DNA from: Methylicorpusculum oleiharenae
Lineage (GTDB): Bacteria > Pseudomonadota > Gammaproteobacteria > Methylococcales > Methylomonadaceae
Direction of reading: 5' to 3'
Assembly (NCBI RefSeq): GCF_009828925.2
Contig: NZ_WUTY02000001.1
Location: forward strand, 4,308,492-4,372,491
Length of the DNA stretch: 64,000 nucleotides
Made by a program: the position numbers and the translations under genes. Positions 2,777 through 61,264 of this stretch are shown piece after piece. The first letter of the stretch is position 1. Every line of letters begins with the position of its first letter. A model generated the notes under the pieces. It searched no databases, had not been told where the DNA came from, and saw nothing but the letters and a program-made list of their open reading frames with translations.

Positions 2777-4867
2777 ATGAATAAAAAAAGAGCTTACACG
2801 CTAACAGGCGTTATGACGATCATCGGTATAACCGCATTTTTCTCTTTACAATCTTCAACTGAATTTAGCAATGAACCGTTACTGGGCCACGGCAATAAAG
2901 ACGCATTGAGCACGATATACAGCAACTGGAAAAGCAATTATGAAGCGAGTGGCGGCAGCCCTACAACGCTAAAAATTCCCTTAGCTTATTCTCGCATTTT
3001 TTCTGAAACGCCGACTTTGGCTCGGGGACTATTCAAGCTGGATCTTATGAAAGGCGATATATCAGTCCAGGTAAAAGGGCTCGACAACAAACGCTATGAC
3101 TTATGGCTAGTGGATAACAAAGAAGGCGATCAACAGACAGTAAAACCCGAACCGGCTGACGGCTATTACCGGATTGGGGAACTGAACCACAAAGACAACT
3201 CTGCCGAGCTGATTACTCAATTAAAAAAAGATGAACTGCAAAACTTTAAAATAGATATGCTGGCCATCACACCCGCTGGCATAAGGCCGGATCAATCGAT
3301 TGTCATCAGCGGAGCACCTGGTGCATTACAACGCTTGTATTATTCAGACAAGCTATGGACTTTGACTCAAGTGGGTGAAGTCATTTCAAAACCTTATTCA
3401 AAAATACCTTTTGAATTTTTATTACCCAAATCCGCACAGGCAGCAAATCACAAACAAACCAACCTGACCAGCGTACTCGGTGCAGAAATCGCCGAAGGAC
3501 GCAGATTATTTATCAATGAAACCTTCAACGGTAACGGCCGCACTTGCGTTACCTGCCATAGACTGGATAACAACCATACCATTGATCCCAAATACATTGC
3601 CAAGCTGCCTAAAAATGATCCTTTATTTGTTGCCGAGACCAGACCTGCTCTCAAGGACTTGGAAAAACCCAGACTGATGCGGGAAATGGGCTTGGTGCTG
3701 AGCAACATCGATGGATTTGACAAGCCCGGCGTCATGCGAAGTGTCCCTCATTTGCTGGCACTGTCGACCAGCATCACGACAGAATTGGTCGCCAATAAAG
3801 GAGAATTCCCGCAAGATGAAGAATTTGAACATGCCTTGGGTTGGTCAGGTGATGGATCAGTGGGCAACGGTTCGTTGCGTGAATTTACCATCGGGGCAGT
3901 GGTTCAGCATTTTCCAAAAACGTTAAACAGACAGCCGGGTAAAGATTTCCGCTTGCCTACCGACGCTGAATTAACTGCAATTGAGCTTTATATGCTGTCG
4001 TTAGGCCGCAGTGAAGACTTAAATTTGAGCAAAATGACCTTCAAATCAGAAATAGTGCAGCGAGGAAAAGTTTTATTCGACACTAAAGAAAATCCGGTTG
4101 ACTCGTCAGGAAAACCGGTTTTCGGAAAGTCAGCTAACTGTAACGGATGCCACTCCAATGCGGGCGCAATCAGTTCCACGACAAATGGTAATCCAACCCG
4201 TGATACCGGGATAGAAATGATGATGGATCAGGCCGCAGTTCTGCTGGATCCGGACACACCGATGGACGGCGGCTTCGGGACAGATCCTCACGGTGATTGC
4301 AGCAGCCTTTTACGCTCGCAACAGGAGGAAGATGCGCCTTGCAATTATGGTGAAGGACGTTTTAACACCCCCACTCTGGTCGAAGCGGCTGACACAGCGC
4401 CCTTCTTTCACAATAACAGCGTCAGTACGATAGAAGAAGCGGTTGCCTATTACAACACAGAGGCATTTAATAACTCACCCGGACACCTCACCTCTTCTCG
4501 TAAAGATCGCCAAGTCAAGATAGGCTCATCGCAGGTAGTGGCAGTTGCTCTCTTCCTTAGAAGCATCAATGCTCTGGAAAATATTCGAAACTCCAATCAT
4601 TTGCTGGATCAAGCCATGAAGCTGGATGCCGCAAACGGAAGAGAAATGGTCAAGCTCGCGATGGCTGATACCGAAGACGCGATAGAGGTGCTGACTGAAG
4701 GACAAATATTACCTTATCCTGAAGCGGTAAAAAAATTGGAAGCTGCCTATAGACTGGAAGCGACAGCGGCACTGTTACAAGTCCCAACCATTCGGAATCC
4801 CATGCTGAGAAAAGCCAGAAACTTAAAGTCGGAAGCCAACTCACTGATAGTCGATATTGCCTCATAA
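2777..4867 (+). CDS. Di-haem c-type cytochrome of the cytochrome c peroxidase/MauG/RoxA superfamily
   Basis: The 696-residue product has an N-terminal signal or membrane anchor (residues 5-26: TLTGVMTIIGITAFFSL) and two haem c motifs, C257-V-T-C-H261 and C455-N-G-C-H459, so it should be exported and carry two covalent haems. The C-terminal half has the family segment GRFNTPTLVEAADTAPFFHN. Relatives reduce peroxide (CCP), perform long-range oxidation (MauG) or cleave polyisoprene (RoxA). At 696 aa it is about twice CCP length and nearer to RoxA-like proteins, with roughly 200 extra N-terminal residues before the first haem that include a beta-rich segment (residues about 75-180). The substrate cannot be deduced. 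The stop codon lies inside the putative target duplication of the downstream MITE. Confidence 0.8.
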   Translation: MNKKRAYTLTGVMTIIGITAFFSLQSSTEFSNEPLLGHGNKDALSTIYSNWKSNYEASGGSPTTLKIPLAYSRIFSETPTLARGLFKLDLMKGDISVQVKGLDNKRYDLWLVDNKEGDQQTVKPEPADGYYRIGELNHKDNSAELITQLKKDELQNFKIDMLAITPAGIRPDQSIVISGAPGALQRLYYSDKLWTLTQVGEVISKPYSKIPFEFLLPKSAQAANHKQTNLTSVLGAEIAEGRRLFINETFNGNGRTCVTCHRLDNNHTIDPKYIAKLPKNDPLFVAETRPALKDLEKPRLMREMGLVLSNIDGFDKPGVMRSVPHLLALSTSITTELVANKGEFPQDEEFEHALGWSGDGSVGNGSLREFTIGAVVQHFPKTLNRQPGKDFRLPTDAELTAIELYMLSLGRSEDLNLSKMTFKSEIVQRGKVLFDTKENPVDSSGKPVFGKSANCNGCHSNAGAISSTTNGNPTRDTGIEMMMDQAAVLLDPDTPMDGGFGTDPHGDCSSLLRSQQEEDAPCNYGEGRFNTPTLVEAADTAPFFHNNSVSTIEEAVAYYNTEAFNNSPGHLTSSRKDRQVKIGSSQVVAVALFLRSINALENIRNSNHLLDQAMKLDAANGREMVKLAMADTEDAIEVLTEGQILPYPEAVKKLEAAYRLEATAALLQVPTIRNPMLRKARNLKSEANSLIVDIAS

Positions 4868-6049: not shown

Positions 6050-8437
6050 ATGATAGCTGTACAATTTATCCACCGGTTACTGCTGGTTATCACGCTCGCA
6101 CTGCTGACGGCCTGCGGCAGCTCACAAGAGCGCGAGCAAAAGTATCTTGAAAAAGCCCAGTCCTTTTACGATCAGAACAATCTTGAGAAAGCCCGTGTAG
6201 AGCTAAAAAATGTTCTGCAAATCAACCCCAAAAACATGGATGCTAATTTTCTTTTGGCTCAAGTCGAAGAAAAAAGCCAAAATTGGCAAAAAGTATTCGG
6301 TTTATTATCCGCCGTTGTCGAAGGCCAACCGGACCGTTTCGATGCTCAAGTTAAACTGGGTAAATTATTTTTAATCAGCGGCAACGTAGAGAAAGCGGAA
6401 GAAAAAGCGGATTTAGTCCTGGCAAAAGCTCCTGAAAATATCGATGCTCTGGCATTAAAAGGCGCGATATTCCTACGTAAAGAAGACCCGACCCAAGCGA
6501 AGGCGCTTTTTGAAAAAGTCTTGGCACTCGAACCGGGCCAACAAGACGCAACCTTATTAATGGTGAAAATTCTGGGTGACGAGAAAAAAATTGATGAGGC
6601 ATTGCAGTTAGTAGAATCGGCTTTAAAAGTCCATCCTGATGCGATTAATCTTGCGTTGGTAAAAATCAATATTCTTTCTGCTCAAGGCAAAAAAGATCAG
6701 GTTGAAGCCGAGATGAAAGCCTTGGCAATGCAATTTCCGGAAAATGAAAATTTGAATTATGGGTTAGCCAAGTTTTATGCATCCGATAAACGTATTGATG
6801 AGGCTGAACAGGTATTAAACAATTTAATAACTAAACTGCCAGAAGCTGATGGCCCCAAGTTAGCTTTGGTCGATTTTTTGATCTCACAAAGAAGCAAAGA
6901 CATAGCTGAAACCAAATTGCAGGCCCTAATCAAGGAAAACCCAAAAAACTTTAGCCTGCGTTTTGCCTTACTCAGAATCTATCAGGATCAACCGGACCGT
7001 ATCAAAGAAGTTCTGAATACCATCGTTGCTGATGATCCCGGCGGTAAACACGGACTTGAAGCACAAACTCGATTGGCCGCCATTGCAATCAGTGACAAAG
7101 ACATGGAAAAAGCCCGTGGGATTCTTGAAGAAGTTATCAAAGCCGATCAGAAAAACAGTAATGCGCTTTTGATGAGGGCGGGCATCTTTCTTAACGAGAA
7201 GAGCTTTGACGCCGCCACGGCCGATTTAAGAACCGTATTGCGTGATGAACCGGAATCCGAAAAAGCCCTGCTATTGCTGGCAAGCACCCATCTACAAAAC
7301 GGAAAAATCGATTTGGCCCGTGAATCTCTTGAGAAAATCCTGGCTATCAATCCCAAGAATCTGATTGCGTCACGTGACTTGGCCAGATTGATGGTAAGAC
7401 AAAATCAGGCTGACGCGGCATTAGCACTGTTGGAAAAAACGCAAACCAATAATGAAAAAGATGTCGAGACTGTCGTTATGCTGGTCGACTTATACGGGCA
7501 ACGTAAAGACTGGCCTAAAGCTGAAGCCGCAGCCCATTCATTGCTCGACCTTAGCGATAATAAAGAATTGGCCCATTATAAAATAGCCCAAGTCAATTTA
7601 GCTCAAGGAAAAACAAAAGAAGCAGCGGATGAATTCAAAAAAGTATTGGAAATCAAACCCTTTGCTATCGACGCTGTCAGCGGATTGGTTAACAGTTACC
7701 TGGCACAAAAAGACATTAAACAAGCTGAAAAAACGCTGGATGAGATATTAGCCAAACAACCCGAAAACGGTGCTTTCCTGTCCATGCGTGGCGAAATATA
7801 TCTCAAACAAAACAAATTTGTCGAAGGTGAGAAGCTTTATTCCAAAGTGGTAGAACTTTATCCTAAGTTTGAACAAGGCTATCGCGATTTGGCTTCTGTT
7901 TACTTAAGACAGGAACAAACCGATAAAGCACTTAACGTTTATCAAAAAGGATTGGGCGTCTTACCCGATAGCGTTCAGCTATTAATGGAATTTGCAGCGA
8001 TTAATGAAATCACCAAAAATACCGATGCCGCAATGGCTACGTATGAAAAAGTGCTCACACTTAAGCCTGAGCATCAGCTGGCAACCAATAATTTAGCCGC
8101 ATTACTGGCCAACAAAGGTGGTGAAGAAAATATTAAACGGGGATTATCGTTAGCGCAAACCTTTAAAAACTCAGATTTCCCGTCATTCTTGGATACCTTT
8201 GGCTGGTTGAGTTATCTGAATGATCAGACAGATGATGCAGTGGCCGCATTAGAAAAAGCCGTTGCGAAAGAGGCGAGAATTCCCGACCTTCATTACCATC
8301 TGGGTATGATCTATCTGAAAAAAGGGCGTAATGAAGACGCTAAACAAGCATTTGAAAAAGCACTTTCCCTTAACACGGCTTTTGATGATGCAGATAAGGC
8401 AAAAACAGAACTTGAAAAACTGAAAACAGGTTCATAA
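6050..8437 (+). CDS. prsT: PEP-CTERM system TPR-repeat lipoprotein (PrsT type)
   Basis: The 795-residue product starts with a lipoprotein signal peptide whose lipobox is L19-T-A-C22, then consists almost entirely of tandem tetratricopeptide repeats (LEKARVELKNVLQINP, AKALFEKVLALEPGQ and many more). Architecture and length match the PrsT lipoproteins that accompany exosortase/PEP-CTERM loci, where they are thought to act in envelope assembly or exopolysaccharide export. The mature protein should be anchored in the outer or inner membrane facing the periplasm. A PEP-CTERM protein is encoded next (9073-10011), which supports the assignment, but no exosortase gene is in the window. A cellulose-synthase-type TPR scaffold (BcsC-like) is a less likely alternative because no beta-barrel follows. 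Confidence 0.82.
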   Translation: MIAVQFIHRLLLVITLALLTACGSSQEREQKYLEKAQSFYDQNNLEKARVELKNVLQINPKNMDANFLLAQVEEKSQNWQKVFGLLSAVVEGQPDRFDAQVKLGKLFLISGNVEKAEEKADLVLAKAPENIDALALKGAIFLRKEDPTQAKALFEKVLALEPGQQDATLLMVKILGDEKKIDEALQLVESALKVHPDAINLALVKINILSAQGKKDQVEAEMKALAMQFPENENLNYGLAKFYASDKRIDEAEQVLNNLITKLPEADGPKLALVDFLISQRSKDIAETKLQALIKENPKNFSLRFALLRIYQDQPDRIKEVLNTIVADDPGGKHGLEAQTRLAAIAISDKDMEKARGILEEVIKADQKNSNALLMRAGIFLNEKSFDAATADLRTVLRDEPESEKALLLLASTHLQNGKIDLARESLEKILAINPKNLIASRDLARLMVRQNQADAALALLEKTQTNNEKDVETVVMLVDLYGQRKDWPKAEAAAHSLLDLSDNKELAHYKIAQVNLAQGKTKEAADEFKKVLEIKPFAIDAVSGLVNSYLAQKDIKQAEKTLDEILAKQPENGAFLSMRGEIYLKQNKFVEGEKLYSKVVELYPKFEQGYRDLASVYLRQEQTDKALNVYQKGLGVLPDSVQLLMEFAAINEITKNTDAAMATYEKVLTLKPEHQLATNNLAALLANKGGEENIKRGLSLAQTFKNSDFPSFLDTFGWLSYLNDQTDDAVAALEKAVAKEARIPDLHYHLGMIYLKKGRNEDAKQAFEKALSLNTAFDDADKAKTELEKLKTGS

Positions 8438-58304: not shown

Positions 58305-58991
58305 ATGAGCGATAAAGAATTTAATACTGAAAATCAAAACGGTGGCGTGGACAAAAAAAGACGTTCACTGACAAAAATTGGACTAACAACGCCAGTCATC
58401 GCATCCTTATTGAGTCGCCCGGCTTTTGCTACTCAGTGTTCTGGTAGCGCTTTAGCTTCAGGTAACTTATCAAATCAGGTTGAGTTATCAACTTGTGGGA
58501 CATGTACGTCTATTCAATGGAGTGCAGCAACCCCAGCCGAACTAGCCAGTATAAACATAAGCCTAACCAGCTCAATTGGTACTATTTTTACGATTCCCAC
58601 TTTAACACGTCCAACTAATCCCACCAATTACTCAGGTCTGCCGATTTTATCTGGAACTATTGGACAAGCTCTTGCCGGAACAATTGTTGTTCATGACCAA
58701 TTAAGATTCAAAAATAATACCAGTGATCTATCTGGCACAGAGCCTCATAGAACTCAACTGAAAGCAGCCATACGTTTGTTCACAACCGCCTACCTTAATG
58801 CGCTTCATATTGCTACCAAGGTAAATATTACGTATACGCCTAACCAAGTTCAAACCGCAGTCAACTCAGCATTATTGATTACGACCCCTTCACAACAAAA
58901 TCAACCAAATCGCATCAATATCGTAGCTGTGAATAGTTTAGCTACCAACTACCCTGAAAACGGTACCTCTTGTGCCATTAATAGGACTTAA
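58305..58991 (+). CDS. Exported protein with Tat-like leader; candidate substrate of the HPr-rel-A cluster
   Basis: The 228-residue product begins with a charged region, then KKRR20SLTKIGLTTPVIAS and a SRPAFA cleavage site (after A42), a pattern like the twin-arginine leaders of proteins next to HprK-related kinase genes. The mature part is rich in Thr, Ser and Asn with a C64-G-T-C67 pair, C45 right after the leader and one Cys near the C-terminus. No known domain is recognised. It is first of four co-directional genes (11 bp before the PqqD-like gene). Secretion or periplasmic maturation is likely; function is unknown. Confidence 0.65.
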   Translation: MSDKEFNTENQNGGVDKKRRSLTKIGLTTPVIASLLSRPAFATQCSGSALASGNLSNQVELSTCGTCTSIQWSAATPAELASINISLTSSIGTIFTIPTLTRPTNPTNYSGLPILSGTIGQALAGTIVVHDQLRFKNNTSDLSGTEPHRTQLKAAIRLFTTAYLNALHIATKVNITYTPNQVQTAVNSALLITTPSQQNQPNRINIVAVNSLATNYPENGTSCAINRT

Positions 58992-59002
58992 TAAAACAGC
59001 CT

Positions 59003-59320
59003 TTGAGTCTAAAAGTGAATTACTGGTCCTGGCCTTACGATCTGGCTATTAAAATTAGTGTATGGGAAGATGGGGCTGTGATATTTAATCAATTAACTCA
59101 AGATACGCATTTATTAAAAAGCCCTTCCGTATGGATTTTAAGAAAACTAGAATTCAACTGTTTGAGTCTCGATGCTCTGGCAATGCTGGCAATCCAGGAA
59201 GATATCATGATGGATGATAAAGACAGCCGCAAATCTCTTGAAATCTTTTTAAACAGCTTAGAACAACTGGATTTACTGACATCAACTTACAATGAAAGTT
59301 TGGGCAACTCGTTAGCGTGA
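59003..59320 (+). CDS. PqqD-like small protein (HPr-rel-A system peptide-chaperone type)
   Basis: The 105-residue product starts at a TTG (an in-frame GTG is at 59015) without a clear RBS; the start is uncertain. The pattern WEDGAVIFNQLTQDTHLLKS followed by SVWILRKLE and LEIFLNSLEQLDLLTS is that of PqqD-type wing-helix proteins, which bind leader peptides in RiPP pathways. Its stop overlaps the GTG of the kinase gene (GTGA), indicating translational coupling. Confidence 0.75.
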   Translation: MSLKVNYWSWPYDLAIKISVWEDGAVIFNQLTQDTHLLKSPSVWILRKLEFNCLSLDALAMLAIQEDIMMDDKDSRKSLEIFLNSLEQLDLLTSTYNESLGNSLA

Positions 59321-60174
59321 AAAGTTATTCCGTCAAAACAGGCCCTTTCCTTTCATGTCTAAGCACGTCATTACCCTCCGTCATTACCAGCCTGGAATTA
59401 CTCTATCCAGGCATGATCTCTAACTATCAAGATGATTTTTACGACTTCCATATCAAGCTTTCAACACCACAAACAATACGCCGCTGGCTAAAACCTCAGG
59501 TGGTGTTCTTTTTTGACGGCAAAAAACCGTTCAAACCTTTACCTCTTGACCAAGCTTTTCCGATGTTTGAATGGGGCTTGAACTGGTGTATCAGCCAACA
59601 TTGCCATCACTATCTAATCATTCATGCGGCTGTTGTTGCCAAAAACGATAAGGCTTTAATATTGCCCGGCCAACCCGGCGCAGGAAAAAGCACTTTGTGC
59701 GCAGCACTTATTCATAGTGGTTGGCGTTTGTTATCTGATGAACTTACTCTGCTTTCTTTATCTACCGGTTTAATTTCACCACTAGCAAGACCGATCTGCC
59801 TTAAAAATGAATCCATCAAGGTTATTCAGGATTTTGCTCCTGAAGCTGTATTCGGAAATGTTGTGCATGATACCGTCAAAGGCTCGGTAACCCATGTCAA
59901 AGCACCGGATGAAAGTATTGAAAAAGTAGACATTCCAGCGACTCCGCTTTGGGTTGTGTTTCCCCAGTATCAAACAGATTCCGAGTGCCTGTTAAGTGAT
60001 AAAAAAAAGGGGCTGTCCTTTATGGAACTCGCCAAATTATCGTTCAATTACAACTTGCTTGCTCTTACTGGATTCAATGCTTTAAGCCAACTGGTGGAAA
60101 ATAGCGGTTGTTATGATTTGCGTTACAGCCGCTTGGAAGAAGCAATCCTGTCTTTGGACAATCTGGTTTCTTGA
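59317..60174 (+). CDS. HprK-related kinase A
   Basis: The 285-residue product resembles the C-terminal kinase part of HPr kinase/phosphorylase: LIIHAAVVAKNDKALILPGQ then P-loop G118-QPGAGKS-T126, then GWRLLSDELTLL as Walker B-like segment and SPLARPICLKN. It lacks the HprK N-terminal domain and, as far as can be seen, a full HprK signature, as expected for the HprK-rel-A group. It probably phosphorylates a substrate in the cytoplasm; the target is unknown. Start GTG is fixed by the 4-bp overlap with the PqqD-like gene. Confidence 0.8.
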   Translation: MKSYSVKTGPFLSCLSTSLPSVITSLELLYPGMISNYQDDFYDFHIKLSTPQTIRRWLKPQVVFFFDGKKPFKPLPLDQAFPMFEWGLNWCISQHCHHYLIIHAAVVAKNDKALILPGQPGAGKSTLCAALIHSGWRLLSDELTLLSLSTGLISPLARPICLKNESIKVIQDFAPEAVFGNVVHDTVKGSVTHVKAPDESIEKVDIPATPLWVVFPQYQTDSECLLSDKKKGLSFMELAKLSFNYNLLALTGFNALSQLVENSGCYDLRYSRLEEAILSLDNLVS

Positions 60175-60178
60175 AGTT

Positions 60179-61264
60179 ATGGATTTAACAAAAAATCGTG
60201 TCGCCCAGGTTCTTAAAAACCCCTTAAGCGTTAGCGCCTATTCACCTAAAGACTGGGATTTATTGATTCGTCAGGCCAGACAATCAATGCTTTTAGTCCG
60301 GCTTTATCTTCTGCTGCAAGAAAACGGCTTAATTGATAAGTTGGCTGATAACATTAAAAATCACTTTATTTCCGCCACAACCTATTCGATTAAACAAAAT
60401 CAATCTTTGAAATGGGAGTTTCGCTGTATAGAAAAAGCGCTTACAGAATTGGCTATCCCGGTAATTTTCCTAAAAGGGTCTGCTTATATCCTTGCATCAG
60501 ATCATGCGGAGAAAGGTCGGCTTTTTTCGGATGTAGATATTTTGGTCAATCAAGATGATTTACCGGCAGTTGAAAGCGCATTAAAAAAACATTTGTGGGT
60601 AGGGACACATCAAAATGATTATGACCAACGCTATTATCGGGAATGGATGCATGAACTACCACCCATGATTCATTTAAAAAGACAAACGACATTGGATGTG
60701 CACCATAACATTTTGCCGACAACCTGCAAAACCTGCCCTGACCCCAAAAAACTATTCGCCAATATTGTCAAGATTGAAAACTCGCCGTTTTGGATTTTAG
60801 CGCCTGAAGACAGAGTGTTGCATAGTGCCACCCACTTGTTTCATGAAAGTGAATTTAAACACGGGTTGAGAGATATTTCCGATATCGATTTACTTCTGCG
60901 CCAATTCTCAAGCCAGGAGAATTTTTGGACTCAATTAGTCAATCGGTCTATTGAACTAAAACAACAAATACCCCTGGTTTATGCCTTACGATACGCATCG
61001 ATCATCCTGGCAACACCCTTATCAGAAGACGCATTAAAACGCATTGCGCCCTACACTCCAAGCAGAATTATGCTTAAATTGATGGATTTTTTGTTTCTAA
61101 GAGTATTAATGCCTGAGCATTCCAGTTGCGAGGATATCTGGACCGGCTTGGCTCGTTGGCTATTATTCATCCGCTCGCATTGGCTCAAGATGCCGCTTAA
61201 GTTATTGATTCCCCACTTAGTAAAAAAAGGTTATCAAGCTGTTAATGGTGAAAGTGCGAATTAA
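60179..61264 (+). CDS. Nucleotidyltransferase family protein (NTP_transf_5 type)
   Basis: The ATG at 60179 follows the kinase stop by four bases; the longer frame from 60113 only overlaps the kinase gene. The 361-residue product has VIFLKGSAYILASD and the nucleotidyltransferase motif GRLFSDVDILVNQDDL (G-R-x-x-S-D-x-D), then LDVHHNILP. This family regularly forms the third member of HPr-rel-A gene sets with a PqqD-like protein and an HprK-like kinase. It may transfer a nucleotide or sugar-nucleotide group to the same target. Confidence 0.8.
   Translation: MDLTKNRVAQVLKNPLSVSAYSPKDWDLLIRQARQSMLLVRLYLLLQENGLIDKLADNIKNHFISATTYSIKQNQSLKWEFRCIEKALTELAIPVIFLKGSAYILASDHAEKGRLFSDVDILVNQDDLPAVESALKKHLWVGTHQNDYDQRYYREWMHELPPMIHLKRQTTLDVHHNILPTTCKTCPDPKKLFANIVKIENSPFWILAPEDRVLHSATHLFHESEFKHGLRDISDIDLLLRQFSSQENFWTQLVNRSIELKQQIPLVYALRYASIILATPLSEDALKRIAPYTPSRIMLKLMDFLFLRVLMPEHSSCEDIWTGLARWLLFIRSHWLKMPLKLLIPHLVKKGYQAVNGESAN

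Follow-up and report, generated by a model that had tools for sequence, protein, structure and literature searches.

A candidate serine-phosphorylation and twin-arginine export unit in the HPr-rel-A gene set of Methylicorpusculum oleiharenae

A 64,000-nucleotide stretch of the Methylicorpusculum oleiharenae genome (contig NZ_WUTY02000001.1, positions 4,308,492 to 4,372,491; hereafter the window) carries at positions 58305–61264, on its forward strand, four closely packed genes for a protein with an N-terminal leader, a PqqD-like protein, an HprK-related kinase and a nucleotidyltransferase-fold protein. The cluster corresponds to NCBIfam's HPr-rel-A gene set, its PqqD match falling just under the model's cut-off. 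We propose, with a probability of about 0.68, that the four genes constitute a single maturation-and-export unit, in which serine phosphorylation guided by a RiPP (ribosomally synthesized and post-translationally modified peptide) recognition element, or RRE, is followed by a second modification and by export through the twin-arginine translocation (Tat) pathway. The best reading of the cluster is a serine-phosphorylating machine like those of paeninodin and the linear polyphosphorylated peptides (LPP), in which the precursor would be a whole exported protein and its leader would double as the Tat signal. What is said here of these systems draws on two papers (PMC9266682, PMC13381572).

The leader protein accompanies the kinase almost wherever the kinase occurs. 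Kinases scoring over the family cut-off were found in 24 of 61 genomes of relatives and in 41 of the 369 genomes drawn from the class, 30 of the latter supplying loci; contigs of named genomes contributed the best 80 of at least 315 loci. The resulting 130 loci (50 + 80) include the window's own and six duplicates. L025, whose kinase is over the cut-off but split in two pieces, was excluded; the 372-residue open reading frame (ORF) that holds the C-terminal part of that kinase starts with what looks by eye like a transposase. With a profile made from 29 seeds, 119 of the 130 loci show a leader protein at E<1e-3 (42/50 and 77/80), five further loci have one in the right place at E 0.001–0.03, and in L056, L126 and L131 it was identified on reading. 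The leader protein is thus present at 127 of 130 kinase loci, which leads us to reject chance neighbourhood, and the remaining three (L005, L018 and L119) end at a contig edge. The leader N-terminus is cut off in L058 and L061, and one stray profile match (E 0.022) sat outside its cluster. The leader stop codon precedes the PqqD start by a median of 14 bp, with 113 of 121 distances falling between −120 and 150 bp; three of the outliers are over-long PqqD ORF starts, and the others are taken up below. A PqqD gene is present in 128/130 loci and an NTP_transf_5 homologue in 79/80; L077 has two of the latter (3752–4837 and 6875–7975).

A search of the 369 class genomes with the leader alignment gave matches at E<=0.01 in 56 genomes, and the draw divides into 38 genomes with kinase and leader, 3 with the kinase alone, 18 with a leader match alone and 310 with neither. 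Wherever a match at E<=1e-10 extends into the leader, which is the case in 31 genomes, the genome is one of the 41 with the kinase. The 18 leader-only genomes comprise seven with the short sister peptides described below, four that match the mature domain only (G140, G144, G159 and G274) and seven with weak matches (E 3.4e-4 to 0.0086). The kinase genomes without a leader match are G151, G194 and G317, and G194 holds L042, a locus of the second substrate type (type B, below). The clusters lie mostly in Pseudomonadota, and the nearest named locus among the matches listed is L059, from a Methylomicrobium sp. metagenome-assembled genome, with a kinase 94% identical to that of the window, which would make the host probably a gammaproteobacterial methanotroph. 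The first-pass annotation of this DNA had asked whether the leader protein stands beside the three-gene set in other genomes and had offered its absence there as a possible refutation; with a leader protein at 127 of 130 loci and contig ends cutting off the other three, that refutation did not occur.

The leader protein of the window (58305–58991, 228 residues, ATG start) is of type A, marked by SxxxSGN behind the leader, and was examined in an alignment (A2) with 73 of the 76 leader proteins of the named loci. L069, L100 and L134 were omitted; SxxxS is present in all three on reading, and the first two have a long extra N-terminus. Mean column identity is only 13%, yet a small set of positions is nearly or fully fixed. 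The predicted leader, or Tat-like signal peptide, comprises residues 1–42 (58305–58430), the cut after A42 being suggested by the −3x−1 pattern, with A, G or S at position −1 in 70 of the 74 proteins. Within it lies the twin arginine R19-R20 (58359–58364), where R19 is found in 74/74 and R20 in 73/74. Behind the cut, two serines are invariant in all 74 proteins and never replaced by threonine: Ser48 (codon 58446–58448), the first-choice candidate phosphoacceptor, and Ser52 (58458–58460), the second candidate. The strict preference for serine recalls the LPP kinase LppK, for which an S3T substrate gave no phosphorylation (PMC13381572). They are four residues apart in 72 proteins and five in two, within a motif C-x-x-S-x3-S-G-N whose cysteine, C45, is kept in 70/74; C64 is kept in 69/74, and the window protein also has C67 and C223. 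When all type A proteins are anchored on a short leader profile, SxxxS or SxxxxS follows the leader in 113/113 (107 distinct); among 268 control segments, each of 44 residues and taken from other parts of these proteins, 63 contain SxxxS. L041 and L126, missed by this profile, were read by eye.

The segment L27-x-x-P30-V-I32 (58383–58400) occupies the place of the YxxPx[LVIFA] motif by which leaders of lasso peptides and LPP are recognized, the Y position being mostly L, V, A or I in the long family. Ser48 follows the P30 column by 17–25 residues, and by 17–21 in 65 of 74 proteins. An RR motif, a hydrophobic stretch and small residues at the cut give the leader the layout of a Tat substrate, and the genome encodes TatC. 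Two TatC matches of equal score were seen there (G000:C1:4745208–4745840 and G000:C1:1101493–1102125), which reflect either a duplication or an assembly effect. An AlphaFold model of the protein has an all-helical mature domain at modest confidence (predicted local distance difference test, pLDDT, 68.7), with blocks of residues 1–60 at 49–62. A Foldseek search with this model yielded no PDB match, all 13 candidates within E<=10 having an E-value above 0.001. Nothing in Pfam matches the window protein, and NCBIfam gives a single match at E 0.038, far under that model's cut-off; scans of all 74 leader proteins gave nothing useful in either collection, neither of which models the family.

The next three genes begin 11 bp behind the leader gene; the kinase gene overlaps the PqqD-like gene by 4 bp and stands 4 bp before the nucleotidyltransferase gene. 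The PqqD-like gene (59003–59320, 105 residues, TTG start), the predicted RRE or leader-binding chaperone, is named PqqD_rel_X by family scan: its product matches TIGR04353 at E 1.4e-7 and 32.3 bits, slightly below the cut-off of 35, and the same model matches 66 of the 68 PqqDs in an alignment (A3) of the window protein with 67 of 79 others, at E<=0.001. Against the PDB, a profile of the family places TbiB1 (E 0.0016) and TfuB1 (0.0081), both of them lasso B1 proteins, at the top. With the AlphaFold2 model (pLDDT 89.2), the top Foldseek match is TbiB1 with its leader (E 0.07), and 6jx3_B, a B1 protein with leader, gives a template-modelling (TM) score by target of 0.78 at E 0.13. TM scores by target are 0.72–0.79 for 5v1v_A, 5v1u_A, 5v1u_B and 6jx3_B and 0.56–0.58 for two other TbiB1 chains, the lasso B1 chains having E-values of 0.07–0.28 and no match reaching E<=0.001. 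Profile and model comparisons thus point to a winged-helix RRE fold like that of leader-bound RREs.

The kinase gene (59317–60174, 285 residues, GTG start) encodes a clear HprK_rel_A protein (TIGR04352, E 8.9e-115, 382.6 bits against a cut-off of 200) with the P-loop G-Q-P-G-A-G-K-S-T. Its best PDB match is HprK (E 0.0021), and H103, K124, D141 and E142 are invariant in 35/35 kinases of an alignment (A1) of the window protein with 34 of 50 others. The fourth gene (60179–61264, 361 residues) encodes an NTP_transf_5 protein (PF14907, E 4.9e-52, 177.4 bits, cut-off 31.2) with a conserved KG...DxD signature, in which the first aspartate is present in 79/80 and the second in 80/80. The longest mechanical ORF for this gene begins at 60113, within the kinase gene; the ATG at 60179 was chosen on reading, and the protein scans were begun one codon upstream, at 60176. 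In these respects the first-pass annotation was accurate: the ORF calls confirm four genes in one direction with short overlaps or gaps, the twin arginine, four cysteines and P-loop are as it described them, and its assignment to the HPr-rel-A set, among which it counted the NTP_transf_5 gene, agrees with the three family scans, with the PqqD match below cut-off. Its remark that PqqD-like proteins bind leader peptides gains backing from the likeness to leader-binding RREs, and its choice of the leader protein as the substrate is supported by the pairing, by R19 and by the two invariant serines.

In the mechanism that we propose, the 228-residue protein would be made with a leader serving both as Tat signal and as RiPP recognition sequence. 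The PqqD-like RRE would bind this leader in the cytoplasm, around L27-xx-P30-VI, and present the flexible stretch behind the future cut to the HprK-related kinase, which would phosphorylate S48 as the first choice and/or S52. RRE-guided phosphorylation at these positions is proposed because related kinases phosphorylate serines of their precursors and because the distances from the leader proline to the serine are similar. The NTP_transf_5 enzyme could then place a sugar or a nucleotide on the phosphoserine, as PsmN, which leads to hexoses on phosphoserine, is reported to do in pseudomycoidin (PMC9266682). The modified protein would leave through the Tat pathway and be cut after A42 by a housekeeping signal peptidase, giving a helical protein with a modified N-terminal loop between C45 and C64 that perhaps acts at the cell surface or together with exopolysaccharide. 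Sequence and structure comparison establishes the gene set, the almost constant pairing of leader protein and enzymes, the fixed R19, S48 and S52, the RRE-like fold and the conserved catalytic residues; we infer that the leader is bound, that phosphorylation occurs and where, that another modification follows, that Tat is the route, that the leader is cut off and what the protein finally does.

Comparison with L059 suggests that part of the unit is exchangeable. Between positions 58542 and 59305 the two loci have about 35–61% DNA identity per 100 columns, whereas the flanks on both sides are 91–93% identical. The divergent block starts about 25 residues past the SxxxSGN motif and ends nearly at the end of PqqD, taking in the larger part of the mature domain and almost the whole of PqqD. 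The result is a sharp mosaic in sequence, with the pattern expected after allelic exchange. The joint behaviour extends further: in a comparison of 99 loci, from which type B loci, duplicates, bad starts and non-adjacent leaders were dropped, PqqD similarity correlates with mature-domain similarity given the kinase (partial Mantel r 0.30, 0/999 permutations) and still does with kinase and leader removed (r 0.26, 0/999). The correlation of PqqD with the leader is lower given the kinase (r 0.18, 0/999) and weak with kinase and mature domain removed (r 0.10, 28/999). In other pairs of loci, too, a change of mature type tends to come with a change of PqqD. Linkage of neighbouring genes can cause the correlation between PqqD and mature domain, and PqqD may also read the mature domain. 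A more specific scheme can be offered tentatively, as a possibility that we do not favour over its negation: a single N-terminal sequence would be RiPP leader and signal for Tat at once, the RRE would delay export of the entire protein until serines past the leader carry phosphate capped by a sugar or a nucleotide, and mature domain and RRE would be swapped together, with the leader motif and the genes for kinase and transferase unchanged.

Judged by appearance, the mature parts of the substrates fall into two types or more, and the family also has a branch of short peptides. Eleven type B substrates were read (L002, L004, L007, L010, L013, L020, L022, L023, L042, L044 and L054). Their leaders are of the same style, with P...TLxS, mostly TLRSG, and their mature parts look different from type A. 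A serine lies at P+14/15 in 11/11, just past a likely A-x-A site, a count for which no control was made, and SC-x-x-S followed by a few residues forms the C-terminus in 6/11. The short branch, reached through the leader profile, consists of 16 peptides of 57–149 residues in 12 loci (L169–L176 and L178–L181); in six of these (L169, L170, L172, L174, L175 and L181) the stretch examined contains a related kinase that scores below the cut-off of TIGR04352. PqqD, HprK-like kinase, NTP transferase and peptide occur together as a full set in L174 and L181, and L172 has three peptides with kinase and PqqD, the PqqD matching the lasso model NF033530 at 8.5e-12 and 45.1 bits, under its cut-off of 70. 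Six of these sister peptides, scanned against NCBIfam, exceed no model's cut-off. All 16 have RRxF[LIV], Y at P−3 within YxxPx[VIL][LM]TL, and a GS whose serine is 16–17 residues behind the P. In these leaders the Tat-like consensus thus overlaps YxxPx[VIL][LM], the RRE motif of lasso peptides and LPP. The mature domain also occurs in five proteins of 196–760 residues (L183–L187, L185 starting at a contig edge), for which no leader-profile match at E<=1 and no kinase match was found in the stretch examined; S-x3-SGN is absent from all five, as is RR from their first 60 residues. This helical domain has no name in Pfam. L188 matches none of the three profiles.

Several observations weigh against the proposed unit. 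Only 2 of the 74 aligned leaders, that of the window not among them, are matched by the Tat profile TIGR01409, with a best E of 0.044; because it barely recognizes them, the Tat assignment rests on RR and the general layout. The P30 column is P in 31/74 and G in 25/74, so the RRE motif is not strict, and PqqD follows the mature domain more than the leader in sequence, contrary to pure leader binding. The leader gene lies behind the cluster in L114 and L128, and was not found immediately before PqqD in L023, L077 and L133. The 11 type B proteins read do not have SxxxSGN behind their leaders, and the invariant S48 and S52 could be structural rather than acceptors. The seeds of the leader hidden Markov model were partly picked by the SGN pattern, which may favour the motif, although only 3 of 130 loci were without an identified leader. 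On the enzymatic side, the window kinase has Asp-Glu where the lasso kinases are reported with His-Lys-Asp-Asp (PMC9266682). For LppN, which corresponds in LPP to the fourth enzyme, no activity was seen in its host, where its deletion caused no change (PMC13381572).

Three other explanations account for part of these data. The two serines and SGN might form a structural cap, with any modification placed elsewhere, for instance at the C-terminal SC-x-x-S seen in 6/11 type B proteins; the conserved cysteines that flank the motif would suit such a cap. We judge this unlikely, given that the five kinase-free proteins with the same mature domain (L183–L187) do not have the motif, that the low model confidence of residues 1–60 does not suggest a packed element, and that the position of the serines resembles that of Ser3 in the LPP precursor LppA (PMC13381572). 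The leader protein might instead be a partner and not the target, the enzymes acting on a polysaccharide, a lipid carrier or an HPr-like protein, with the exported protein as receptor or carrier. Some clusters do adjoin XrtA/PEP-CTERM exopolysaccharide genes (export protein in 7/105 neighbours, amidotransferase in 4/105), but two serines invariant in 74/74 right behind an RRE-type leader, the RRE-like protein in the cluster itself and the precedent of LppK and PadeK, related enzymes whose target is their precursor (PMC13381572, PMC9266682), make this explanation improbable.

The remaining possibility concerns the route rather than the chemistry: the leader may be purely of the RiPP type, the RR pair serving recognition by RRE or kinase and the product leaving by another way or staying inside. 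The two TIGR01409 matches among 74 leaders would fit, as would LPP leaders, which are removed by a signal-peptidase-like enzyme in a system for which the available text contains no mention of twin arginine or Tat that we found (PMC13381572). Set against this are the RRx[FLIM] pattern, R or K before the cut in many leaders, the small −1 residue in 70/74, RRxF[LIV] in 16/16 sister peptides, TatC in the genome and scans of the four genes and one gene on either side that show neither transporter nor peptidase, and we see little likelihood that Tat plays no part.

Upstream of the cluster is a ZnuD-like TonB receptor, also found upstream in L059, and downstream a nitroreductase; no peptidase, transporter, lasso cyclase or B2 peptidase was found in scans of the four genes and these two. 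Among 105 of the 154 neighbour genes of L059–L138 (set A4, each trimmed to 330 residues at most), no family has more than seven members, and a function shared with neighbours was rejected. If the tentative scheme of a dual-purpose leader and swapped cargo is true, bacteria have a special route for secreting phosphoglycosylated proteins, and this route is a platform whose cargo can be changed. With the proposed unit, a named gene set would gain a candidate substrate, a putative acceptor site and a probable order of steps, and it is tied to the newly reported phosphorylation enzymes of LPP and lasso peptides. It is also suggested that RiPP-type leader recognition extends to exported proteins of ordinary size, where it may be coupled to Tat export.

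The NCBIfam HPr-rel-A models (TIGR04352 and TIGR04353) name the kinase and PqqD and leave the leader family unmodelled. Our literature searches found no paper on HPr-rel-A, the HprK-related kinase, TIGR04352, TIGR04353 or the model names, and nothing relevant that links twin arginine, RiPP and PqqD. NTP_transf_5 and PF14907 led to no paper either, PMC13381572 being reached only through the name of the linear polyphosphorylated peptides, and the papers listed for combinations of RiPP, HprK, kinase, proteobacteria and signal peptide looked unrelated from their titles and opening lines. The parts of the system have precedents; for their combination with a full-size Tat-type substrate we found none. 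The role proposed for PqqD would be like that of the Tat proofreading chaperones of the TorD, DmsD and NapD type, small proteins that hold a Tat signal until maturation; their fold and the modification concerned are different.

Two known groups come close to the cluster in its predicted chemistry. In paeninodin, pseudomycoidin and LPP, HprK-like kinases act on serine and an NTP transferase is encoded in the cluster (PMC9266682, PMC13381572), so that the phosphorylated or nucleotidylated product, which the first-pass annotation expected to be new, is partly foreshadowed. Tailoring of paeninodin and pseudomycoidin (PadeK/ThcoK, PsmK and PsmN) shares with the window an HprK-like serine kinase, an NTP-transferase homologue and a B1-type RRE, but its acceptor is the C-terminal serine, whereas ours is predicted near the mature N-terminus (PMC9266682). 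A lasso cluster was rejected, as scans of the four genes and the two beside them show neither the cyclase (C) nor the B2 peptidase.

The LPP clusters of Bacillota (LppA-K-B-S-D-N) differ from the window in several ways. The SipW-like peptidase and MsbA-like exporter are missing from the four genes and two flanking genes, and the window leader has RR and L-TT-P-VI and no HQxIxFET, as against the LPP motif YxxPxVLxHQxIxFETxxS (PMC13381572); membership in LPP was rejected on these three grounds. The window-type substrate is larger and has conserved cysteines, and its loci are mostly in Pseudomonadota rather than Bacillota (PMC13381572). The sister peptides have the YxxPx[VIL][LM] part of the LPP motif in 16/16 and not the remainder; lasso leaders have [Y/W]xxPx[L/V/I/F/A] and LPP leaders YxxPxVL (PMC13381572). 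What LPP and the window share is an RRE, an HprK-like kinase and an NTP transferase, together with a precursor whose N-terminus is conserved and whose C-terminus is variable (35–200 residues in LPP) (PMC13381572). Both lie near polysaccharide genes in some genomes, LPP in capsule loci (PMC13381572). In each, the acceptor serine, in our case a predicted one, sits just past a cut of the signal-peptidase type: LppK modifies Ser3 of the core, S3T and S3Y giving no product, and by our own count this serine lies 15 residues after the P of the printed motif, compared with 17–25 for S48 and 16–17 for the serine of the sister peptides (PMC13381572).

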